A stretch of 41,132 bases of DNA, taken from Capniomyces stellatus. Lineage: Eukaryota > Kickxellomycota > Harpellomycetes > Harpellales > Legeriomycetaceae. The position numbers were made by a program, and so were the translations under genes. The first letter of the stretch is position 1; every line of letters begins with the position of its first letter. Below, piece after piece: positions 4,236-41,131 of this stretch. The stretch is taken from positions 126,926 to 168,057 of the forward strand of contig LUVW01000027.1 in assembly GCA_001661515.1 (NCBI GenBank), in the 5' to 3' direction. Under the pieces are notes generated by a model. That model had not been told where the DNA came from and did not search any database. It saw only the letters and a list, made by a program, of their open reading frames with translations.

Positions 4236-5390
4236 ATGGAAGTTGACGATTGCCAAACAAACTCTAAAACTGATCCCAACTTGTTTGTTGATTTATCAGC
4301 GTATGCTGGTATCGGAACGGACCAGGACACATCTGCGTCAGATATTGTTTTGCAGCTAAAAGAGATGTCAGAGTATTTGCACAAGTTTTATAGCAGTTAT
4401 AACACACCAGAAGCGGAAAGTTCCGTTACTTTTGAACAGGACAAGGAAAGTGTGTGCAAAAGCGGTGATTATAGCTATATTGACGTTGATGATGTTCAGG
4501 GATCTGTAGTTAAAAATCCAGTATTAGATTTGAATCAAAATCTGGAATTGGGTTTAGATCTAAATATGGACTTGGATATGTACTTGGATCCAATTGATGC
4601 ACCAGAAACAGCAAACCAGTCAGTCAAAAAATCAAAATCAAAACCAAGACCAAAGCCAACAAAGCCAAAACCAAAACCAACAGAGGGTTTGGAAAAGGTG
4701 ACAAAGCCACCAAACGCCTTTATGATATATAGATCAATGTTCCACAAGTTCTACTTGCAGTATTATCCAAATGCACAGGCCAAACACATTTCGCCAATAA
4801 TCTCGCACAACTGGAAGCACATCTCATCATCGTCAAAACGGGTGTTTTTGGACAGGTCGAATTATTTAAAGTTGGAGTACATGGACACAACAAGTAAAAA
4901 TGATAAAGACATTGATTTCAGCTGCGGTGACAACGCCGAATGTGACTGCGACTGTGATGAGTGTGGGCCTGTACATTGCCCTGATAACAACACGTTGGAG
5001 CTAGATAAAATTATGTCTTTGAGGCCGCAGATTCCACCCAGTGTACTCCTAACCCCCGAGTTTCCCTCACAACAACATATGTTTTTGCAGCACTTGTTCA
5101 ATTCCCACATAAATGAGAGTATCAATCCACTCAATACCCACAACATTGACTCAAATACAAACTACCTCCACGCACCAACCGACCCAAACTATCTCTATAC
5201 GCAGAACCAGGAGCTAAACATCTATGACTTGCTGAATCAGTTGGTCTACCAAGAATCCGAGTTGGGTGTTTTGGGCTCAACTAATAATTGTGTTGATATT
5301 GACACAAACACCGGTATTTGTGCTCAGTTTGAGTCTTGTGGCGATACTGGCAACATTGGCGATATTGTACACAACAGTGAGTACACTTAA
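4236..5390 (+). CDS. HMG-A: MATA-type HMG-box transcription factor
   Basis: Sequence-specific DNA-binding protein of the fungal mating-type/SOX-like HMG class, acting in the nucleus. The 384-residue product has an acidic N-terminus and a basic P/K stretch (KSKPRPKPTKPKPKP, about 130-145) that could be a nuclear localisation signal. The HMG box at about 157-225 has the MATA signature KPPNAFMIYR, then QAKHISPIISHNWK and a basic helix. Directly after the box a cysteine cluster (C230, C236, C238, C240, C243, C248) is set in acidic residues, which is unusual for this family and could bind a metal. The C-terminal half is N/Q/L-rich and may be an activation region. It lacks the GYTPILIPNK motif of HMG-B and HMG-C. 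No intron. It is first of four co-oriented related genes downstream of DHH1. Mating-type function is inference. Confidence 0.85.
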   Translation: MEVDDCQTNSKTDPNLFVDLSAYAGIGTDQDTSASDIVLQLKEMSEYLHKFYSSYNTPEAESSVTFEQDKESVCKSGDYSYIDVDDVQGSVVKNPVLDLNQNLELGLDLNMDLDMYLDPIDAPETANQSVKKSKSKPRPKPTKPKPKPTEGLEKVTKPPNAFMIYRSMFHKFYLQYYPNAQAKHISPIISHNWKHISSSSKRVFLDRSNYLKLEYMDTTSKNDKDIDFSCGDNAECDCDCDECGPVHCPDNNTLELDKIMSLRPQIPPSVLLTPEFPSQQHMFLQHLFNSHINESINPLNTHNIDSNTNYLHAPTDPNYLYTQNQELNIYDLLNQLVYQESELGVLGSTNNCVDIDTNTGICAQFESCGDTGNIGDIVHNSEYT

Positions 5391-7407: not shown

Positions 7408-8379
7408 ATGGCTAAGCCTCAAATACATAACTTGTACCCAATCGATGCACATTTTAGAGACAGTATTACACAGCTGGACTCAAATGGCATGGTTGTAGAA
7501 ACAGGCTATACCCCGATTTTAATCCCTAATAAGTACATGAGCAGTGGATATAAAATATTAATTTGCCAAGTCAGAAACAAAGAGGATCAAGAAAATATGT
7601 TTAATTTGGGTCTAATAGTTGATAATCTCGGAAGCAGAGAGTATAGCAGTGAGATAGAAGCAAGCGGTATACAGCTTGAAAACAGAGTAAAAGAACCAAT
7701 ATTCACACCACCGTCCAATTCAAGCCTCAACCACAGTAACAGGCATCCACGTATGTTATCAAATTCCGTTGATAGAGTTCGTAAAACAAACTATTGCAGC
7801 TCCAAGGATAAAAAAAAGGATCCAGGAAAGCCACCAAATGCATTCATACTTTACCGCCGGGACAAGCACAAGTTTATGCTGATGAATAGCCCAAAGCTAC
7901 AAGCACGCCACTTGTCATCGCAAATAGCCATTATGTGGAGAGACGAGAAACCGCAGGTGAAAAAGTACTACCAAGACCAAGCAAAGGTTGAGAAGCAGTT
8001 GTTCAAGAAGAATTTGGACATGGGTATGCTGCTAAAGAGCAAGCAAGAAGGTTTGGAAAAGTCCGGATATATCTCGTTAAATAGTCTGATTGAACCAAAT
8101 TTACAGCTATGCTCGGAATTCCTAAAACCAATTAGCCCAAACTACCAAAGCAGCAACAGCCTGACATACAGCGCTTTTGGAAATATTAGCCCATCAGAAA
8201 ACCAACCAGACTTTTCGCTACCACTAGTTTTTCCAAACAGGTTTCACACAAACGAGTTTTTAAGTGGAAACAGAGAGGTAATGCATTTGACCAGCCCGAA
8301 CCTAAACACCAACTTTCTAGCAGACCAAGAACTGAGCTTTATGAGCGACATGAATATTCTGAACCCATATGACTATTAG
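7408..8379 (+). CDS. HMG-B: MATA-type HMG-box transcription factor with GYTPILIPNK module
   Basis: A 323-residue nuclear DNA-binding protein. It has an N-terminal conserved block at about 33-57 (GYTPILIPNK then SSGYKILICQVRN), shared with HMG-C and the 63-residue relative and not known to me as a named domain. A variable S/N-rich linker carries a basic KDKKKD stretch just before the box. The HMG box is at about 141-207, with the signature KPPNAFILYRRDKHKF, ARHLSSQIAIMWR and a K/Q-rich third helix. The tail of about 115 residues is N/S/P/F-rich with repeated ISP and SPN motifs and is probably a disordered regulatory region. No intron. KPPNAFILYR is characteristic of fungal MAT1-2 and sex-locus HMG proteins, so a sexual-development role is likely but inferred. 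It lies upstream of the minisatellite and HMG-C. Confidence 0.85.
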   Translation: MAKPQIHNLYPIDAHFRDSITQLDSNGMVVETGYTPILIPNKYMSSGYKILICQVRNKEDQENMFNLGLIVDNLGSREYSSEIEASGIQLENRVKEPIFTPPSNSSLNHSNRHPRMLSNSVDRVRKTNYCSSKDKKKDPGKPPNAFILYRRDKHKFMLMNSPKLQARHLSSQIAIMWRDEKPQVKKYYQDQAKVEKQLFKKNLDMGMLLKSKQEGLEKSGYISLNSLIEPNLQLCSEFLKPISPNYQSSNSLTYSAFGNISPSENQPDFSLPLVFPNRFHTNEFLSGNREVMHLTSPNLNTNFLADQELSFMSDMNILNPYDY

Positions 8380-9335: not shown

Positions 9336-10010
9336 ATGGATACAGATCTGTATACTCTTGATAATATCATCCTTACTCCACCTGCTGGATTTAGAAACAT
9401 TGATGAACCTGGGTTAAGCGAGAAAGTGTGTGTAGCTGCAGAGGGATATACTCCAATACTGATTCCCAACAAATGCTTCAGAAAAGGTTGTTTTCTGGTA
9501 GTGTCAAAGATCAAAAATGGCGAGATCGTGGACAAAGTGCTCTATAAGTTTGAAAACGCAAACCCACTCAGTGGTAAGAGCCATTATAGTCAAGATCCAG
9601 CAGATGGTTACTTTAATGCAGATAGCTATACCCAGAACAATGAAGTGTACAGCAGAACAGAGAGTCTAATTCTTAGTAGGGCGAGTAGTCAACCGGATAA
9701 TGTGTCGTGTGAACCATACAGACCAAATACCAATGACTTCATGCTTGTACAAGAAAAAAAGCCACCAGGAAAACCACCTAATGCGTTTATATTATATCGC
9801 AGCGATTGGCACAAGGCAATGATCAAACATAACCCTAAATCCCAAGCTAAGTATATATCTCCATACATAGCCGAGCAATGGCGAAAGGAAAGAAATGAGG
9901 TTAAAAGGTACTATTTGGATCTGGCTAGCAAGTTAAACAAAGAATTCAAAAAAAATAAAAACTCGAATATTGGGTATGTAAGACGGAAAAAAAAAGAGCT
10001 AGCTGAGTAG
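9336..10010 (+). CDS. HMG-C: short MATA-type HMG-box protein with GYTPILIPNK module
   Basis: A 224-residue DNA-binding protein, likely nuclear and closest to HMG-B. The N-terminal conserved block GYTPILIPNK is at 37-46, followed by GCFLVVSKIKN. A linker of about 80 residues leads to the HMG box at 146-208 (KPPNAFILYRSDWHKAM, AKYISPYIAEQWRKERNEVK), and a short basic tail with RRKKK may act as a nuclear localisation signal. It lacks the long C-terminal tail of HMG-B, so it may be a pure DNA-binding competitor or partner. No intron. B and C look like products of a local duplication: the N-terminal block and the box are conserved while the linkers have diverged. Last of the plus-strand HMG run. 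Confidence 0.85.
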   Translation: MDTDLYTLDNIILTPPAGFRNIDEPGLSEKVCVAAEGYTPILIPNKCFRKGCFLVVSKIKNGEIVDKVLYKFENANPLSGKSHYSQDPADGYFNADSYTQNNEVYSRTESLILSRASSQPDNVSCEPYRPNTNDFMLVQEKKPPGKPPNAFILYRSDWHKAMIKHNPKSQAKYISPYIAEQWRKERNEVKRYYLDLASKLNKEFKKNKNSNIGYVRRKKKELAE

Positions 10011-11266: not shown

Positions 11267-13934
11267 ATGGCTGACGAATTTGGAAAAAGGGAAATGACAG
11301 AGTCACAGTATGTGTATGACCCGGTTTTTGAGTTTGATGTACCCAGAATGTACGATTTAAACAACACGCCAGGGTCGGGAGTTGATGACTGGTTTGGTAA
11401 GTTTGGCTGGCTGACTTTGTAACAAAAAGCTTGTATATACTGAATGTTTACACTAATGATGTGAATATGTGGATTGCTTGTGTGTATATGTTAAAAAAAA
11501 TGGTGTATTAACTGGCATCGGTATCAACAATAGCACTCAACAAAGAAACCCCGTGGACAAAAGGGAAAGGTGATCTAGAGAAACAAAATATAATAGGCGA
11601 ATCGACGATGAGTCTGGATTTTCAGAGCCCGAATTCAAGCAAGAAAAAGATTAGACATCGGTCAACCCCATTCCCAAAGAGAAAAATATTACTAAAGGAA
11701 TCTCCAGAATCGTCAGAAAATACTAGAAACTTGATGGACGACTCGAACATAGAGTTTGAAAGCCCGGTGAATACCAGAAAACATTCGAGGAATTCAGCAG
11801 CACTACACCAAAGCGATAAATTAGGACTTGATAGGGAGGAGAAAGTGATAGAGAATAGAAGATTGTCGGAAATATTTAGGAGGCAGATATCGGCCAAAAA
11901 GGATGGGTGGGTGGTAAAAACAACGCCTAAGAGGCTTCATGAGGGCGAGAACGATGAGGATTTTGGGAATTATGGGCTGGTGGGGACTAAAGATAAGGAT
12001 AATGTGGAGAAAAGCAACGGGGAGCCGATACTGAAAAGCAGTATGAAAAGCAGTATGAAAAGCAGTATGAAAAGCAGTATGAAAAGTAGTATGAAGGAGT
12101 TTGGGTCGGTATCAAAGAAAGTGGGGTTCGGTAGTGTTGATATAGCAAAAAGCGAAAAGAAAAGAAGTACAAGGTTTGAGATTGATGAAGGTGAAGCTAG
12201 TTTTGAATACTATGATGACGGGAAGAGTTTTGAGTATCAAGAAACGTTAAAAAATCTTTCAGACGGCGATGTCGGTGGTGCTGATGGAGCTTGTGGATAC
12301 AGTGACGATGTGCTGATAGAAAACTCGACCAGGGATTCAATTACTAACTCGGATGGCTGTCCTGGCAGCTATTCTGGGAGTTACTCTGGCGATGAAACAA
12401 ATAGGATTGATGTAAAAGAGGCTGATGATGAATTTGGAAATTATATGGATGGACTGGGTGGCAATACTGGGTCAATGATTGAGAGCGAAAGTAAGATAAT
12501 AAGCTTGAAGCAAGAATTCAAAGAAAGCAATATGAACGCCTTTGCATTGCAGCTGGAGATGATCAAGAAGGCGCAAAATTCAATTGATAAAGTCAAAACC
12601 AACAATAGGAAAAGAAAAGTGGATGAACTTCAGGAGGAGGATCAGACGGATATTGAAAACGAAACCATGCAGATCCAAAGCTACGAGCCTGAAGACGTTG
12701 GTGGGCTTAATGACGCGACCAGCTTGGATGTTGGAGGGTTTAAAAAAGAGAACGGGGTAGGGAACGGCGGCCTGATTACAAATAGAGAGTTGTTTTTAAA
12801 AAAACTGACGCCAGTTAAGAAACGAAGAATGATTAGGGTAAGACATATTTGCATTAGGACTTTTGCTATTAGTAAAACTCACCATTCCAACGGGGGGGGG
12901 GGGGGNNNNNNNNNNNNNNNNNGGGGGGGGGGGGGGTTATCTCTTGGCGTGTACCACAGTGGGGTTTTAAAAGAGCAACGCATACTGAATTATGATGTGC
13001 TGTATAAATATTTATTTGTTAGTTGACAAAGCCAATCACACCGACGTTTGAAACAGATAAGCGCAGCAAACTTTTGAGTGCCAAAAAGAAAAGCAAATAT
13101 TCGTCTGGAAAGGGCTCAAAAAGGATCGATAAAGTGGTAAACAGATCCCAGTTGAGAAGAGGGTCAAACGAGGAGCCTATTTGGATGAGGAAACGGGCTG
13201 TAGATATAAAGAAGAACCCAAGGTTGGGTTTTGAAGCAAGAGAAAAGGAGGTGGAGAAGAAAAAGGAGAAACTGCATACAGTTCCCTCGTTGACCCAGCC
13301 TAAGCCATTCAAATTCCTGACCGACAGGTTTGCTGAGCAAAAGTTGGAAAGGCTCAGAGATGCGATCAAGTATATTGAGGAGAGAGAGAGGGAACAGAGA
13401 AACTTCAAGGCACAGCCAATACCTGCATTTGGAACACCCAAGCTGCCTGTTAAGCAGTCAAAGTCACCGGTCGAAGTAAAGCCATTTAACCTTCAAGTGG
13501 ATGTTCGTGGAGATATTTACCAAGAAAGCCTGGCAAGAAAAATAGAAAAGCTGCAGCAAACAAGGCAAGAAAGGGCTAATTTCAAGGCCAACTCGATCCC
13601 TGAATCTATTTACTTCCCCTTTGAGGTCAGCAGGAGTAGCAAAATGCTCACCAAGCAAATGGAAATCACCTTGAACACCGATATACGGCATCAGTCTAGG
13701 GAAGCTTGGAATGAAGGCCTGAGACAACGCGAGCAGAACAAGGAGATGTTGTTGGAAAAGCTGAGACAGGAAACCCTTGAAAAGGAAAAGGAAAGCATTC
13801 GGCTGCTAAGAGCCTCGCTTGTACACAACCCGCTTCCAATACCTGACCACACCCCAATGATCATACATCCCTCCGAGAAACCACTAACCAAGCCAACCAC
13901 TCCTTCCTGGTGCCATCCTACTAACCCTGGATAG
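11267..13934 (+). CDS. TPX2: TPX2-like spindle assembly factor / Aurora A activator
   Basis: Microtubule nucleator and Aurora A activator acting at the spindle. Exons by splice signals and phase: 11267-11396, 11534-12837, 13023-13934, giving 781 residues (human TPX2 is about 747). Exon 1 encodes the Aurora-binding N-terminus: YVYDPVFEFD at 15-24, then VDDWF at 39-43, joining across the intron to ALNKETPW, parallel to the YSYDAPSDF...DSWFEEKA arrangement of animal TPX2. The middle is charged and disordered, with a five-fold SMKS repeat (about 211-231) and NLS-like KRKRK/KKRRM stretches. Exon 3 has TPX2-type repeats: KPITPTFETDKR near 480, KPFKFLTDR at 572-580 with FKAQPIPAF at 606-614, then KPFNLQVDVRG with FKANSIPES, and long coiled-coil K/E/R stretches. 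Intron 2 contains a poly-G tract with a 17-base N gap. It converges on the RRM gene. Confidence 0.87.
12029..12096 (+). repeat. 12-bp in-frame coding minisatellite in TPX2
   Basis: Five tandem copies of a 12-base unit (AAAAGCAGTATG; the last copy has one change) encode SSMK repeats. The perfect nucleotide identity of four copies indicates recent slippage or expansion in a disordered part of the protein. Confidence 0.93.
12892..12936. repeat. Poly-G tract with 17-base assembly gap in TPX2 intron 2
   Basis: Fourteen G, then N at 12906-12922, then fourteen G. The tract lies on the coding strand inside an intron bounded by GTAAGA (12838) and TTGTTAG (acceptor ending 13022). The true length is unknown. 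Confidence 0.9.
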
Positions 13935-35763: not shown

Positions 35764-37167
35764 TTATGCTTGGTAGTTGTCAACGTTCAAGTCATTCAAA
35801 CCCAAGTCCTCGTTCTGTTCATCTGTACGATCGTAGTGTTCGATTGACATGTTTGGGTCGCTATCAGGAGCATAGAGGTTTTGCAAGTAGCTGTTGCTGG
35901 CAGGATCATCTAGAGTTAAATGGAATGGGAACATTTTGCCTTCGATTGTGTCCATTAGTCGCTGTAAAAAGTCTTTAAACACCGCACGTCTTTCCTGAAC
36001 CACCGAGTCGCCCTCTGAAAACGGCGCGTCTCTGTTGAGATCGTCGTAGACCTGGCGAAGAAGTCCTTCGATTGTGGTGAATCTGCCGCCCAGAGTACCA
36101 AGGGTGAGATTCAGGTCGATTTCTGGAATCGAAAGTCCGCAAGTTTCCGACTTGAGAATGTCACGTGAAAGATCTTCTTCGTTTGTAAGCTTCAATGTGA
36201 TTCTGGATCCCTTCTCCATAATTGCACCGCCCGACTTGACCTCGTTGGTTTTGTATCCACAATTGTCACATGCTGTAGCCATAACAATAACGTTTTTGAA
36301 GTGTGGAATGTCGATCTGTCTCATTCTTGTTTCGCATGGTGCGTTGCACACGTGGCAATTTGAAAAGAATTTTGCAACTTCTTCCGCTCCAAACTCGCCA
36401 TTCTCCACTGCGCCTTCCTCTCCATCCATTTCCTCATCCTCTTCTTGGATTACGCCCAACGATTCGTCTTTAGTTTCCTCTTCCAAGTCGTCTGCGGATA
36501 GCATTCCCAGCTGCACCTCTTGCTCGCGGCTTCTTTCAAAGTACTTGATCTTTAGCTTTGCGTCAAGAATCGGCGCCTCCAAAGACTCTATGTAACTATT
36601 TCCGCTTGGATCGTAAAGAACCAACTCAAACGCCTCCTTGTTCTGCAAGTACCCATTCAAGCTCGCAATAATCGTCTCTATTGCACTGAACGCTTCGGGC
36701 AGCTGCTCCTTTCTAGCTGGCTGATCTGTTTCAAGATCCAGAATTATCCCGCTAATCAGCCCCTCAATCGTCGTAAGCTTAGTACGGTTGTTTGGTGGAA
36801 GCTCCAGGTCTATTTCCTCAATTCTTAACGTTGCTGATCCATGTCTAACAATCTGTCTGCTAAGATCTTTAGAATCCTCAATTTTGCATCTCCATTCCTG
36901 TCCTTTCTCCTGGATCGCTTCTCCCGATTGAACCTCGTTGTTCTTGTGTCCACAATGCGGACATTCAAACGACACTACAATTATCTCTTTGAAGTGTGGA
37001 ATCTTTGTCAACATTAGCCTTGTTGTTCCATTCTCGTAGCAATTCATGCACACACTTTCAATAACTGTCACTGGCGTCTCCTCGTCAATGTCAACAAACA
37101 GTGTGTTGCCTTCCTGTCTAGGCTTTTTGTTTGGCAAATCAACGTGTTCATCAGTGCGTTTTTCCAT
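35764..37167 (-). CDS. ZPR1: Zinc-finger protein ZPR1
   Basis: Essential eukaryotic protein that binds eEF1A and assists its folding; it shuttles between cytoplasm and nucleus. The 467-residue product shows the duplicated ZPR1 architecture. Zinc finger 1 uses C40/C43 and C69/C72 (SVCMNC, CPHCGHKNNEV), followed by an alpha/beta domain with TKLTTIEGLISGI and YDPSGNSYIESL. An acidic linker spans about 226-262. Zinc finger 2 uses C271/C274 and C300/C303 (CHVCNAPCETRM, CDNCGYKTNEVKSGG), followed by FTTIEGLLRQVYDDL and LDDPASNSYLQNLYAPD. No intron. It is divergent from PSTK with about 0.9 kb between starts, so the two may share a promoter region; ZPR1-eEF1A and PSTK both touch the elongation/tRNA machinery, but a functional link is only inference. 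Confidence 0.97.
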   Translation of the reverse strand: MEKRTDEHVDLPNKKPRQEGNTLFVDIDEETPVTVIESVCMNCYENGTTRLMLTKIPHFKEIIVVSFECPHCGHKNNEVQSGEAIQEKGQEWRCKIEDSKDLSRQIVRHGSATLRIEEIDLELPPNNRTKLTTIEGLISGIILDLETDQPARKEQLPEAFSAIETIIASLNGYLQNKEAFELVLYDPSGNSYIESLEAPILDAKLKIKYFERSREQEVQLGMLSADDLEEETKDESLGVIQEEDEEMDGEEGAVENGEFGAEEVAKFFSNCHVCNAPCETRMRQIDIPHFKNVIVMATACDNCGYKTNEVKSGGAIMEKGSRITLKLTNEEDLSRDILKSETCGLSIPEIDLNLTLGTLGGRFTTIEGLLRQVYDDLNRDAPFSEGDSVVQERRAVFKDFLQRLMDTIEGKMFPFHLTLDDPASNSYLQNLYAPDSDPNMSIEHYDRTDEQNEDLGLNDLNVDNYQA

Positions 37168-38061
37168 TTTACTTTACTCTTCGCTTTTATATTAGTATAT
37201 ATACTTTTGTATGTACGTTATTCCAACTAATGAAACTTAATCAAAGCTGATATATTAATTTGAAAAATAATTTATTTTTTAAATAAAAGTAGCGGTTTAT
37301 TTTATTTTATTTTATTTATTCAAGACTAGAGTTGTTACTTTTAATATGTATATTTATTTTATACCTTATTATAAATAAAAAAAATTTAAATTGATAGAAA
37401 AAAATTAATTGAAATTTGACTAGTGGAACTGCATCGATCAAAGTGTGTATTTTCTTTTTTTTTTTTTGTTTAAAAAAAATACTATCGTTATTTGAATTGG
37501 TAGTGAAAACAATTCAAAAAGTTCTAAACTAATCCAAAGCCAACCCAATTTCAAAAAGCAACTCAAATTTCGATATAAGAAATAGTAAATCAAATATCCA
37601 ATGATAGCTATTACTTATGCTTTTAAAAGTGCAAAACTCAACCCTATTATAAAGCTCAAAAACACTTGCTTAGTAATTGGTTTATATGTTGGAGCGAATT
37701 GTAACCAGATTGGCTAGCTAAAGTTTCCACATATTCACTCTTTTTTTTTTCCTGCTCAGGTCGTTATTATTTGTTTCCATAATATTCTAGATATAACAAG
37801 CTTGGTCTCATCAACCATTTTAAAGCTAGGCAGGAACCAGGGAACTCATACACAATAATATCTACAGTCCATTTCCAAGAATAAGAATATACCGCTCTTT
37901 AACTAGATTGATGCGGATAGAACCTATTGATTGTAATGCTGGTAATTTGGAATGTAAAAAAGATGGCTTTAAACCCTGAGGTTTAGAGTGAGAATTTCTT
38001 TCATTTCTTTTTGTTGTTGTTATTTTAATAAGGAAAAGGTCAAAACTGCAGATTGGTAAAC
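37168..38061. other. Divergent promoter region of ZPR1 and PSTK
   Basis: An AT-rich stretch of about 0.9 kb with no coding support. A TTTTA pentamer repeat lies at about 37297-37320. A TATATA motif near 37197 lies about 30 bases upstream of the ZPR1 start on its strand. Confidence 0.45.
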
Positions 38062-39384
38062 ATGGAAAAAGATAACGCAATGGTGATTGTGGTTTTGGTT
38101 TTTGGGTTGCCTGGTTCAGGAAAGTCCACTTTGGTCTCTAGACTCAAAGCTCAAATTGAAGAATTCCAAAGCAGTGTGCCCCAACCGAGTAATAATGAGT
38201 GTAGGGGCAGTGGTAGTGTTTTTGACAACAGTGTGTGGACAAAGTACTCGAACACTACTATAAGCGTTAAAGTGTGTGATTTTGACGAAAAGCTGCCGAA
38301 ATGGATAAAACCTGGAGAAGATGTAATATATAGAGGAAGCCTAGCAAACAGGGCTATACCTAAAAGCAGTCCTAGCACGCCACAAGAGCCGACCCTAAGC
38401 AGGTTGTCAGACAAAGAATCCAGTTATAAGAAAGATCGCGGTGATCTGATTGATGAACTGTTTAAAGAACTAGATATTGGAACCAAGAACTCCAACACAA
38501 TCGACCCTCAAAAAACAAATACCAAAGGTATATTAGAAGACGACACCATATCTACAAACAGGCATCAATGCCTGAGTATAATCATTGTTGATGACGTATT
38601 TCAGTACTATTCGATGAGAAAACAATGGTACAAAAAGTCAAACGCGTTTAGATACACATTTATGCAGATATTTGTGGACTGTGAGAAGGAAACACGGTAT
38701 GAAAGGAACAGGGCCAGGGGTATGGAAGCCGGGGGCACGATTGGTAGCGCAAGGGCGCAGATACCTTTGGAGGTGATGGTGTCTCTTGATGCTCGTTTTG
38801 AGCGCCCGTGCACTAATGCAAAGTCTTGGTGGGAACAAAAATACACGCTAAAGGTTGCTGGTTCGCCGGTGCCAACAAACACGGTTGACCAAGATGGCTG
38901 TATATGTGGTGCTCCAAATAACCCACATAAAAGCGCGTCTGATCTGTTAGAATGTACGAGTCTTAAATGCCTACACTGGATACTGGAGCGCAGTAGTGTG
39001 TTCGGGATTGAGCAGCTTGAAAGCTTGGAGCTGGCAAAACGAGCATTGTCCGAGTCAAAAAGCGGTTGCGAGGCAGAGTTTGGGTTGCATGGAGCCTACA
39101 ACCTGCTCAAGAGTTTGGTTAAGCAGTATGTGCTTTCTTTAGACAGGCTCTCGTCTACTAGTGCTGATAGGTATGGTAAAGGAAATGGATGCTTTGGTAA
39201 GTCATCTATGGTCAAAGAACACGCCAAGCTTTTGAATCGGATTAAAAACGATATATATAGCGAGATTAAGCTGAACTATGCTAATGGGTTCTGGCTGGGG
39301 TACGAGGAACGTGACTCGATAGTAGATAGATTTCAGCGTGTGTATAATGATAGCATAGGGAAGTCTTCCGATTCTACTTTGTAG
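38062..39384 (+). CDS. PSTK: O-phosphoseryl-tRNA(Sec) kinase (PSTK)
   Basis: Phosphorylates Ser-tRNA(Sec) to Sep-tRNA(Sec), the step before SepSecS makes selenocysteinyl-tRNA; cytosolic. The 440-residue product starts at the ATG at 38062 (nearby upstream in-frame codons include no ATG). The P-loop GLPGSGKST is at 15-23. CDFDEKLPKW is the counterpart of the YDD...P region. The family-defining block DDVFQYYSMRKQWY starts at D177-D178 and is followed by FMQIFVDCEKETRYERNRAR. Then IPLEVMVSLDARFERP and WWEQKYTL correspond to the PSTK lid and RxxEPxxxxxWE motif. The C-terminal domain ends YEERDSIVDRFQRVYN, like the YEKDNIVQKY end of animal PSTK. Longer than animal PSTK (about 350) because of polar insertions around 85-165 and 275-300. 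Kti12 shares the fold, but its motifs fit worse. No intron. Confidence 0.85.
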   Translation: MEKDNAMVIVVLVFGLPGSGKSTLVSRLKAQIEEFQSSVPQPSNNECRGSGSVFDNSVWTKYSNTTISVKVCDFDEKLPKWIKPGEDVIYRGSLANRAIPKSSPSTPQEPTLSRLSDKESSYKKDRGDLIDELFKELDIGTKNSNTIDPQKTNTKGILEDDTISTNRHQCLSIIIVDDVFQYYSMRKQWYKKSNAFRYTFMQIFVDCEKETRYERNRARGMEAGGTIGSARAQIPLEVMVSLDARFERPCTNAKSWWEQKYTLKVAGSPVPTNTVDQDGCICGAPNNPHKSASDLLECTSLKCLHWILERSSVFGIEQLESLELAKRALSESKSGCEAEFGLHGAYNLLKSLVKQYVLSLDRLSSTSADRYGKGNGCFGKSSMVKEHAKLLNRIKNDIYSEIKLNYANGFWLGYEERDSIVDRFQRVYNDSIGKSSDSTL

Positions 39385-40137: not shown

Positions 40138-41020
40138 ATGCTTAAAAGTATCCAAGTCACCCGAAGACTAGTCTTCCAAGCCAGGCCATTCACGTCAAAA
40201 GCGGGACTTACAAACCTAGTTGATTTCACAAAGGTTAAAAATATTATTCACGGAAAAATCCCAGAAAAGGTAAGTTAGTTTTTGCTGGTTCATTCGTTGT
40301 ATGCGGTGCGGTTTATACTAGCTTTACCATTACAATTGCTGTTGCCATTGCTATTTATTTGGCGGTGTTTGAGGGGGGGGGGGGGGGGCTGGGGGNNNNG
40401 GGGGGGGGGGGGGGGGGGGGGGGGGGGGGCTCTGAGGCATATGGCAAAGTGTGTATTGGTACATGTCTGATTGGTGTATAAATGTATTGTTGATTGTTGA
40501 TGCGGTGATAAATAGTATGTTCTGATCGATGTAAGAAATCCATCGGAGGTAGCAGAAGGCAGAATCCCAACTTCAACTAACATTCCAATGGGGGAAATAC
40601 CAGAGGCATTCAAGCTTCCCAAAGAAGAATTCAAGAAAAAGTACGGAATCGAGTTTCCAACAGAGAATAGCAATATTATATTTTACTGTCTTAGCGGCAA
40701 GAGAAGCAAAATATCGTATGATGAAGTGGAAAGACTTAACCTAGGCTTCAAGTAAGTAATATATATGGTAAAATAAGGCTACAGGATATTTTCCATTCCA
40801 TTATTTTTTTTCTTTCTTCTTGCATTGTACCTTTCATACTTGTACGGTGTGTTCAAGATATTTTAAGGAGAAATTGCGATAAAGAAAATTCATTAGTCCA
40901 GCTTAGATACGGGTCATTGATGCATGTTTTATTTAGCTTGTGTGTTGTAAAAATATATGTAGCTTGTTTAACTACAAGGGCAGCTGGGCAGAGTACGAAA
41001 GAAATACGTTTGGCAGTTGA
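40138..41020 (+). CDS. Single-domain rhodanese, probably mitochondrial
   Basis: Sulfurtransferase (persulfide carrier). Exons are 40138-40269, 40516-40751 and 40963-41020; phases 0 and 2 agree, giving 141 residues. Residues 1-20 (MLKSIQVTRRLVFQARPFTS) form a typical mitochondrial presequence. The rhodanese domain follows: YVLIDVRNPSEVAEGRIPTS (CH2A-type region), NIPMGEI, and the active-site loop YCLSGKRS whose Cys is the persulfide carrier. The last exon supplies the family ending GFNLFNYKGSWAEYERN. It resembles the TSTD1/small eukaryotic rhodanese group. Intron 1 contains a poly-G tract with a 4-base N gap. It lies about 750 bases downstream of PSTK on the same strand. The final exon is only 58 bases and would be missed by simple ORF calling. 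Confidence 0.88.
40373..40429. repeat. Poly-G tract with 4-base assembly gap in rhodanese intron 1
   Basis: G runs of 16, 5 and 30 are separated by CT and by N at 40396-40399, all on the coding strand between donor GTAAGT (40270) and acceptor AATAG (ending 40515). True length is uncertain. Confidence 0.9.
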
Positions 41021-41114: not shown

Positions 41115-41131
41115 GGGGGGGGGGGGGGGGG
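41115..41131. repeat. Poly-G tract at the right contig end
   Basis: Seventeen G follow AT-rich unique sequence and are followed by a single T at the end of the window, mirroring the poly-C at position 1. Confidence 0.9.

Follow-up and report, generated by a model that had tools for sequence, protein, structure and literature searches.

A divergent PSTK-type kinase gene of the gut fungus Capniomyces stellatus and its probable place in a selenocysteine pathway

We found that a one-exon gene of the gut fungus Capniomyces stellatus very probably encodes a divergent O-phosphoseryl-tRNA(Sec) kinase (PSTK), in a pathway that would serve UGA codons lying in frame in two or more genes. The gene lies in a stretch of 41,132 nucleotides (hereafter the window; GC content 37.7%), which corresponds to C20:126926-168057 on a contig of 462 kb, in an assembly of 24.51 Mb and 59 contigs. 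The first-pass annotation had claimed a PSTK for selenocysteine (Sec) synthesis, and the sequence data support this claim, mainly through the pathway genes present elsewhere in the genome and two genes carrying an in-frame TGA. PSTK identity and a role in Sec synthesis are therefore the most likely reading of the gene, well supported mainly by genome context, and we infer the catalytic activity of the kinase, its substrate and the actual insertion of Sec. In the proposed pathway, the divergent PSTK would phosphorylate Ser-tRNA(Sec), SepSecS would turn Sep-tRNA(Sec) into Sec-tRNA(Sec) using selenophosphate from selenophosphate synthetase (SPS2), and eEFSec together with an SBP2 homologue would bring Sec-tRNA(Sec) to the in-frame UGA of SelenoH and SPS2. 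UGA would remain a stop codon elsewhere in the genome.

The PSTK-Type Gene and Its Product

The PSTK-type gene occupies 38062..39384 of the window on the forward strand. An intact, intron-free frame of 440 codons had been described at first pass, and this was confirmed, as the ORF runs without an internal stop from the ATG at 38062 to the TAG at 39382-39384, with a TTG at 38053 as the earliest in-frame start. It is not a chance ORF (about 2e-10 ORFs of this length are expected in the window, given its own composition). The assigned start codon and the single-exon structure are credible, since the homologue from Zancudomyces culisetae, a protein of 439 aa, aligns over 97% of the length, Met1 to Met1, in a MAFFT alignment.

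This homologue, AX774_g1754, was the sole relative found at E-values up to 0.01 among 5.8 billion proteins (6774 candidates scored); it shows 33% identity over 97% and carries the UniRef name L-seryl-tRNA(Sec) kinase. A two-row profile search revealed no homologue beyond the Z. culisetae protein at E-values up to 10 among the best 8000 candidates. More distant PSTKs can escape the protein search, because shared five-residue words are required. A sequence search with the window protein found no PSTK among solved structures, and the structure model of the protein was poor (pLDDT 41.7) and unfit for a fold search. The two fungal proteins match over their full length (440 vs 439 aa), share an identical DDVFQYYSMR block and are apparently both encoded on a contig with ZPR1, whereas their linker regions and C-termini are divergent.

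All the PSTK landmarks listed at first pass were found at their places on the forward strand, and four of the five are wholly or largely common to the Z. culisetae protein; the C-terminal one, in contrast, is weakly conserved. The P-loop GLPGSGKST (residues 15-23; 38104..38130), mostly conserved in Z. culisetae, lies within a Pfam AAA_33 match over residues 10-30. The DDVFQYYSMR block (residues 177-186; 38590..38619) and the QIFVDC strand (residues 202-207; 38665..38682) are identical in Z. culisetae, and the FERP...WWE block (residues 246-258; 38797..38835) is wholly or largely shared. RNRAR (residues 215-219; 38704..38718), which is RNKAR in Z. culisetae, fits the RxxxR motif of PSTK. In the C-terminal YEERDSIV (residues 414-421; 39301..39324), DS alone is common to both proteins, and a helix at residues 415-433 surrounds it in the low-confidence structure model. 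Thus, the protein has both the P-loop and the DD..Y.SMR block of eukaryotic PSTK, the latter being PSTK-typical.

Among 19 families, the top NCBIfam model by E-value was TIGR03575, eukaryotic L-seryl-tRNA(Sec) kinase (E 3.3e-10, 39.7 bits), in a match restricted to residues 173-260, which includes the DDVFQYYSMR block. This score lies far below the curated equivalog cut-off of 382.35 bits, and the Z. culisetae relative likewise stays under it (34.6 bits). Because the cut-off was missed, we term the window gene a divergent kinase of PSTK type, whose placement comes from its pathway context.

Selenocysteine Machinery Elsewhere in the Genome

The first-pass annotation had named SepSecS, EFsec, SECISBP2, SPS2/SelD and a tRNA-Sec(TCA) as partners to look for in the assembly, and all of them were found. 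The tRNA-Sec, at C38:80019-80104 on the reverse strand, scored 64.1 bits against a gathering score of 47, and ARAGORN reported it as tRNA-SeC with anticodon TCA; the remaining 8 of the 9 RF01852 matches stayed under the gathering score (37-39 bits) and are probably serine-type tRNAs. SepSecS was detected on contig C28 as four exon matches, and the joined pieces matched solved SepSecS proteins with E-values from 4.1e-88 for the human protein down to 4.6e-44 for an archaeal one. On contig C8, eEFSec was recognized by eukaryotic SelB domain III (59.9 bits, cut-off 27), and its joined pieces matched solved eEFSec at 1.5e-82, archaeal-type SelB at 7.7e-45, and the best EF-Tu at 2.3e-29. The SPS2 gene on contig C5 gave three matches, none of which reached the 125 bits set as cut-off for selD; once joined, the pieces matched the solved protein selenide, water dikinase 1 with an E-value of 3.6e-91.

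The SBP2 homologue is a single ORF of 783 aa on the forward strand of contig C32 (L038:2837-5188), one of nine L7Ae-family matches, with an E-value of 2.8e-22 to solved SBP2 and 0.018 to the best L7Ae. We found that this ORF also bears ankyrin repeats (Ank_2, 27.5 bits with a cut-off of 27.3; Ank_3, 22.7 bits with a cut-off of 22.3). Of six papers found on SBP2 and ankyrin, none deals with such a fusion, as judged by their titles.

The genome holds a tRNA-Sec(TCA), the SepSecS, SPS, eEFSec and SBP2 genes, and two genes, SelenoH and SPS2, with a TGA at an expected Sec position, as is expected of a Sec-decoding organism. The animal-type Sec pathway comprises tRNA-Sec, PSTK, SepSecS, SPS2 with Sec, eEFSec, SBP2 and SelenoH, and all of these have their counterparts here. 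The differences are that no canonical SECIS was detected here and that the SBP2 homologue bears ankyrin repeats.

In-Frame TGA Codons in SelenoH and SPS2

A genome search with TIGR02174 found SelenoH at 30 bits, in a matched stretch with one TGA and one TAG, of which the TAG is intronic. The gene reads IEHCVS-TGA-STYK, followed by one intron of 118 nt, KQVVWSGIKMGPPRKLKFP and a TAA stop; the TGA, at C7:775275-775273 on the reverse strand, is codon 114 of a product of 194 residues and gives the Sec context CVSU. With the TGA (U) entered as Cys, the protein scored 44.2 bits for SelT/W/H, with a cut-off of 34.2. It stayed under the Pfam Rdx cut-off (19.4 vs 22.6), and the genome search with the Rdx family (PF10262) missed it.

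In SPS2, a frame that spans a GT-AG intron reads FDPSTLGLPLGWRLTSYSGLKG-TGA-GCKVSQERL, with the Sec context GUGCK. Its TGA, at C5:397149-397147 on the reverse strand, stands opposite the T in kgtgckv of solved selenide, water dikinase 1, where members of the family carry Sec or Cys. The gene likely has a further exon upstream, since its frame runs into a TAG before FDPST. In both SelenoH and SPS2, the coding sequence is conserved on both sides of the TGA, with GT-AG splice sites. The earlier proposal that TGA is not always a stop in this genome, and that some genes will be mis-annotated as truncated, gains support from TGA codons at the putative Sec positions of both genes; standard annotation would cut at least two genes of this gut fungus at TGA. 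Other families that we examined yielded no further selenoprotein: in two GPx loci and in MsrA, the stretch that was matched contains no in-frame stop. A search for Sep15/SelM found nothing, and no control was matched in it either.

TGA is also used as a stop codon. Although none of the 11 ORFs picked from 20 in the window ends in TGA, this codon terminates 6 of the 21 ATG-started ORFs of at least 250 aa, the SBP2 ORF included, in 45 genome pieces after removal of overlaps. The tally is rough, because some of the ORFs are exons or antisense and one is likely the first exon of SBP2; within this rough count, no depletion of TGA-ended ORFs was seen. A loss of TGA as a stop was therefore rejected, and TGA is not simply reassigned, since other ORFs end in it.

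Search for a Recoding Signal

SECIS prediction, proposed at first pass, gave nothing convincing. Rfam SECIS_1 had no match in the whole genome at E-values up to 10 (132 of 362 first-look candidates scored), in a search that had no positive control, as the model matched in 4 of 14 control genomes and exceeded its cut-off in none. Nor did Rfam SECIS match at either of the two loci, SelenoH and SPS2. Scanning for a SECIS motif yielded a single weak match, 1.1 kb after the SelenoH stop; with laxer rules, the scan yielded a single weak match that overlaps this stop, whereas the region after SPS2 had none. The 3' regions of SelenoH and SPS2 shared no common motif longer than 12 nt.

Downstream of the SelenoH stop, the strongest fold was a long and stable hairpin, not a canonical SECIS, within nt 71-160 (C7:774752-774841, L040:2753-2842; reverse strand), with a z-score of -3.31 and 0 of 200 shuffles. 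We regard it as a candidate recoding signal and a lead only, because it ranked first in a scan of 93 windows (37 + 56). Around and downstream of the SelenoH TGA, a stretch of 100 nt showed no unusual folding (z -0.67). Mariotti et al. in 2019 are said to have described most fungal selenoproteins as having no consensus SECIS and other RNA structures instead. One possible explanation, which we hold only tentatively and consider rather unlikely, is that Sec insertion in this fungal lineage proceeds via the ankyrin-fused SBP2 recognising a non-canonical 3' UTR hairpin and not a standard SECIS.

Alternative Explanations

The window gene might instead be a KTI12-type kinase, or another P-loop tRNA/nucleotide kinase, with no role in Sec synthesis. 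The protein exceeds the Pfam cut-off of KTI12 (PF08433; 38.5 vs 22 bits), a family of P-loop kinases that is broader than KTI12 proper; it misses the PSTK cut-off, and the archaeal-type PSTK model scores the KTI12 pieces of this same genome (37.1 bits) above it (26.8 bits). However, PF08433 matched at two loci only in the genome, namely the window gene (1 match) and contig C53 (5 matches), and the latter is a separate KTI12 that reads DSMNYIKGFRYQLYC and RYEEPSNTTKWD, motifs not present in the window protein. The eukaryotic PSTK model gave 39.7 bits for the window protein vs 16.2 bits for the C53 pieces, which are incomplete (171 aa), and BLASTP between the two proteins showed little outside the P-loop (best 22.7 bits). 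By these scores, eukaryotic PSTK is the closer fit for the window gene but not for the C53 gene, although profiles alone would not settle the identity. Since PF08433 occurs at only these two loci and C53 is KTI12, the window gene is the only PSTK candidate found, and the pathway found needs a PSTK. A KTI12 identity was therefore rejected, on the separate C53 gene, the profile contrasts and the BLASTP result; placement in that family, which the first-pass annotation had regarded as fatal to a PSTK, is not supported, and we judge a kinase of this type with no Sec-synthesis role very unlikely.

It is equally improbable, in our estimation, that the pathway is a relic in which the machinery genes are kept and UGA is no longer read as Sec. 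The failure to detect a canonical SECIS, in a search with no positive control, and the two GPx loci and MsrA with no in-frame stop in their matched stretches would fit such a relic. Against it, SelenoH and SPS2 are conserved on both sides of their TGA codons with GT-AG sites in place, and PMC12611240 reports expression of both the machinery and the selenoproteins of Z. culisetae. A different concern is the origin of the DNA. The Sec pathway is present in many animals. Insect guts are the habitat of Harpellales such as C. stellatus (PMC4974312), and the contig or the Sec genes could come from the insect host or another eukaryote. However, a ZPR1 zinc-finger gene (35764..37167, reverse strand) is the divergent neighbour of the PSTK gene, 0.9 kb away on the 462-kb contig, and its closest matches, among the best 120 of 4157, are Furculomyces (62%), Smittium (57-59%), Mycoemilia (57%) and Zancudomyces (68% over 78%). 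The contig appears Harpellales-like, since these closest matches belong to Harpellales and other Kickxellomycotina. Moreover, the one relative of the kinase is from Z. culisetae, where PSTK and ZPR1 are each assigned to a contig of 52,364 bases, very probably a single one, so that the linkage seems preserved. The other Sec genes of C. stellatus are found on separate contigs, which measure 0.23 to 1.08 Mb, ancestry having been checked at ZPR1 only. Contamination, a further possibility named at first pass, was rejected because of the Harpellales-like ZPR1 and the apparent PSTK-ZPR1 linkage in Z. culisetae, and we consider it the least probable of these readings.

Selenocysteine Use in Harpellales

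A divergent PSTK in an apparently complete Sec pathway agrees with earlier reports. In PMC12611240, the discovery of Sec in insect-gut fungi is credited to Mariotti et al. 2019 (Nat Microbiol), Sec machinery and SelenoH are described as common to Harpellales, and RNA-seq of Z. culisetae is given as evidence that Sec machinery and selenoproteins are expressed. The same work is cited in PMC8807479. PMC11378755 and PMC10778597 put the number of Sec-using fungal species at nine, and PMC10386755 assigns seven of the nine to Harpellales. C. stellatus is listed among the species of Mariotti et al. in PMC7988114, so that the machinery and SelenoH found here match a trait already described for gut fungi, this species included. 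The first-pass annotation had stressed that fungi were long thought to have no selenoproteins, with a few early-branching lineages as exceptions; the surprise is smaller, because this fungus belongs with the Harpellales, whose Sec use was published in 2019.

A 2021 proteome survey disputes fungal Sec, and with it the 2019 report, on the grounds that fungal protein records contain no U (PMC7988114). The absence of U may arise because gene callers read TGA as stop, and the TGA genes SelenoH and SPS2 may offer an answer to that dispute. Taken together, the Sec pathway looks complete and is already known in kind, probably in C. stellatus itself; our independent reading confirms that the machinery for the 21st amino acid is retained in a gut fungus. 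Less explored are the missing SECIS and the fusion of SBP2 to ankyrin repeats, and a testable question is which RNA signal replaces SECIS in Harpellales fungi.

Other Features of the Window

Homopolymer tracts of G or C occur at 1-20, 12892-12936, 40373-40429 and 41115-41131 of the window. Two of these tract sets surround N gaps (12906-12922 and 40396-40399) and are perhaps artefacts of assembly or gap filling. A spliced gene at 40138-40757, by eye mitochondrial rhodanese-domain-like, carries a G-tract and an N gap in its intron. We also found three adjoining ORFs, at 4236-5390, 7408-8379 and 9336-10010, with HMG boxes of 35.3, 48.7 and 43.5 bits, respectively (Pfam cut-off 25.4), each of which also matches the mating-type alpha HMG box below threshold; the three ORFs may form a tandem family or a region resembling a mating-type locus.
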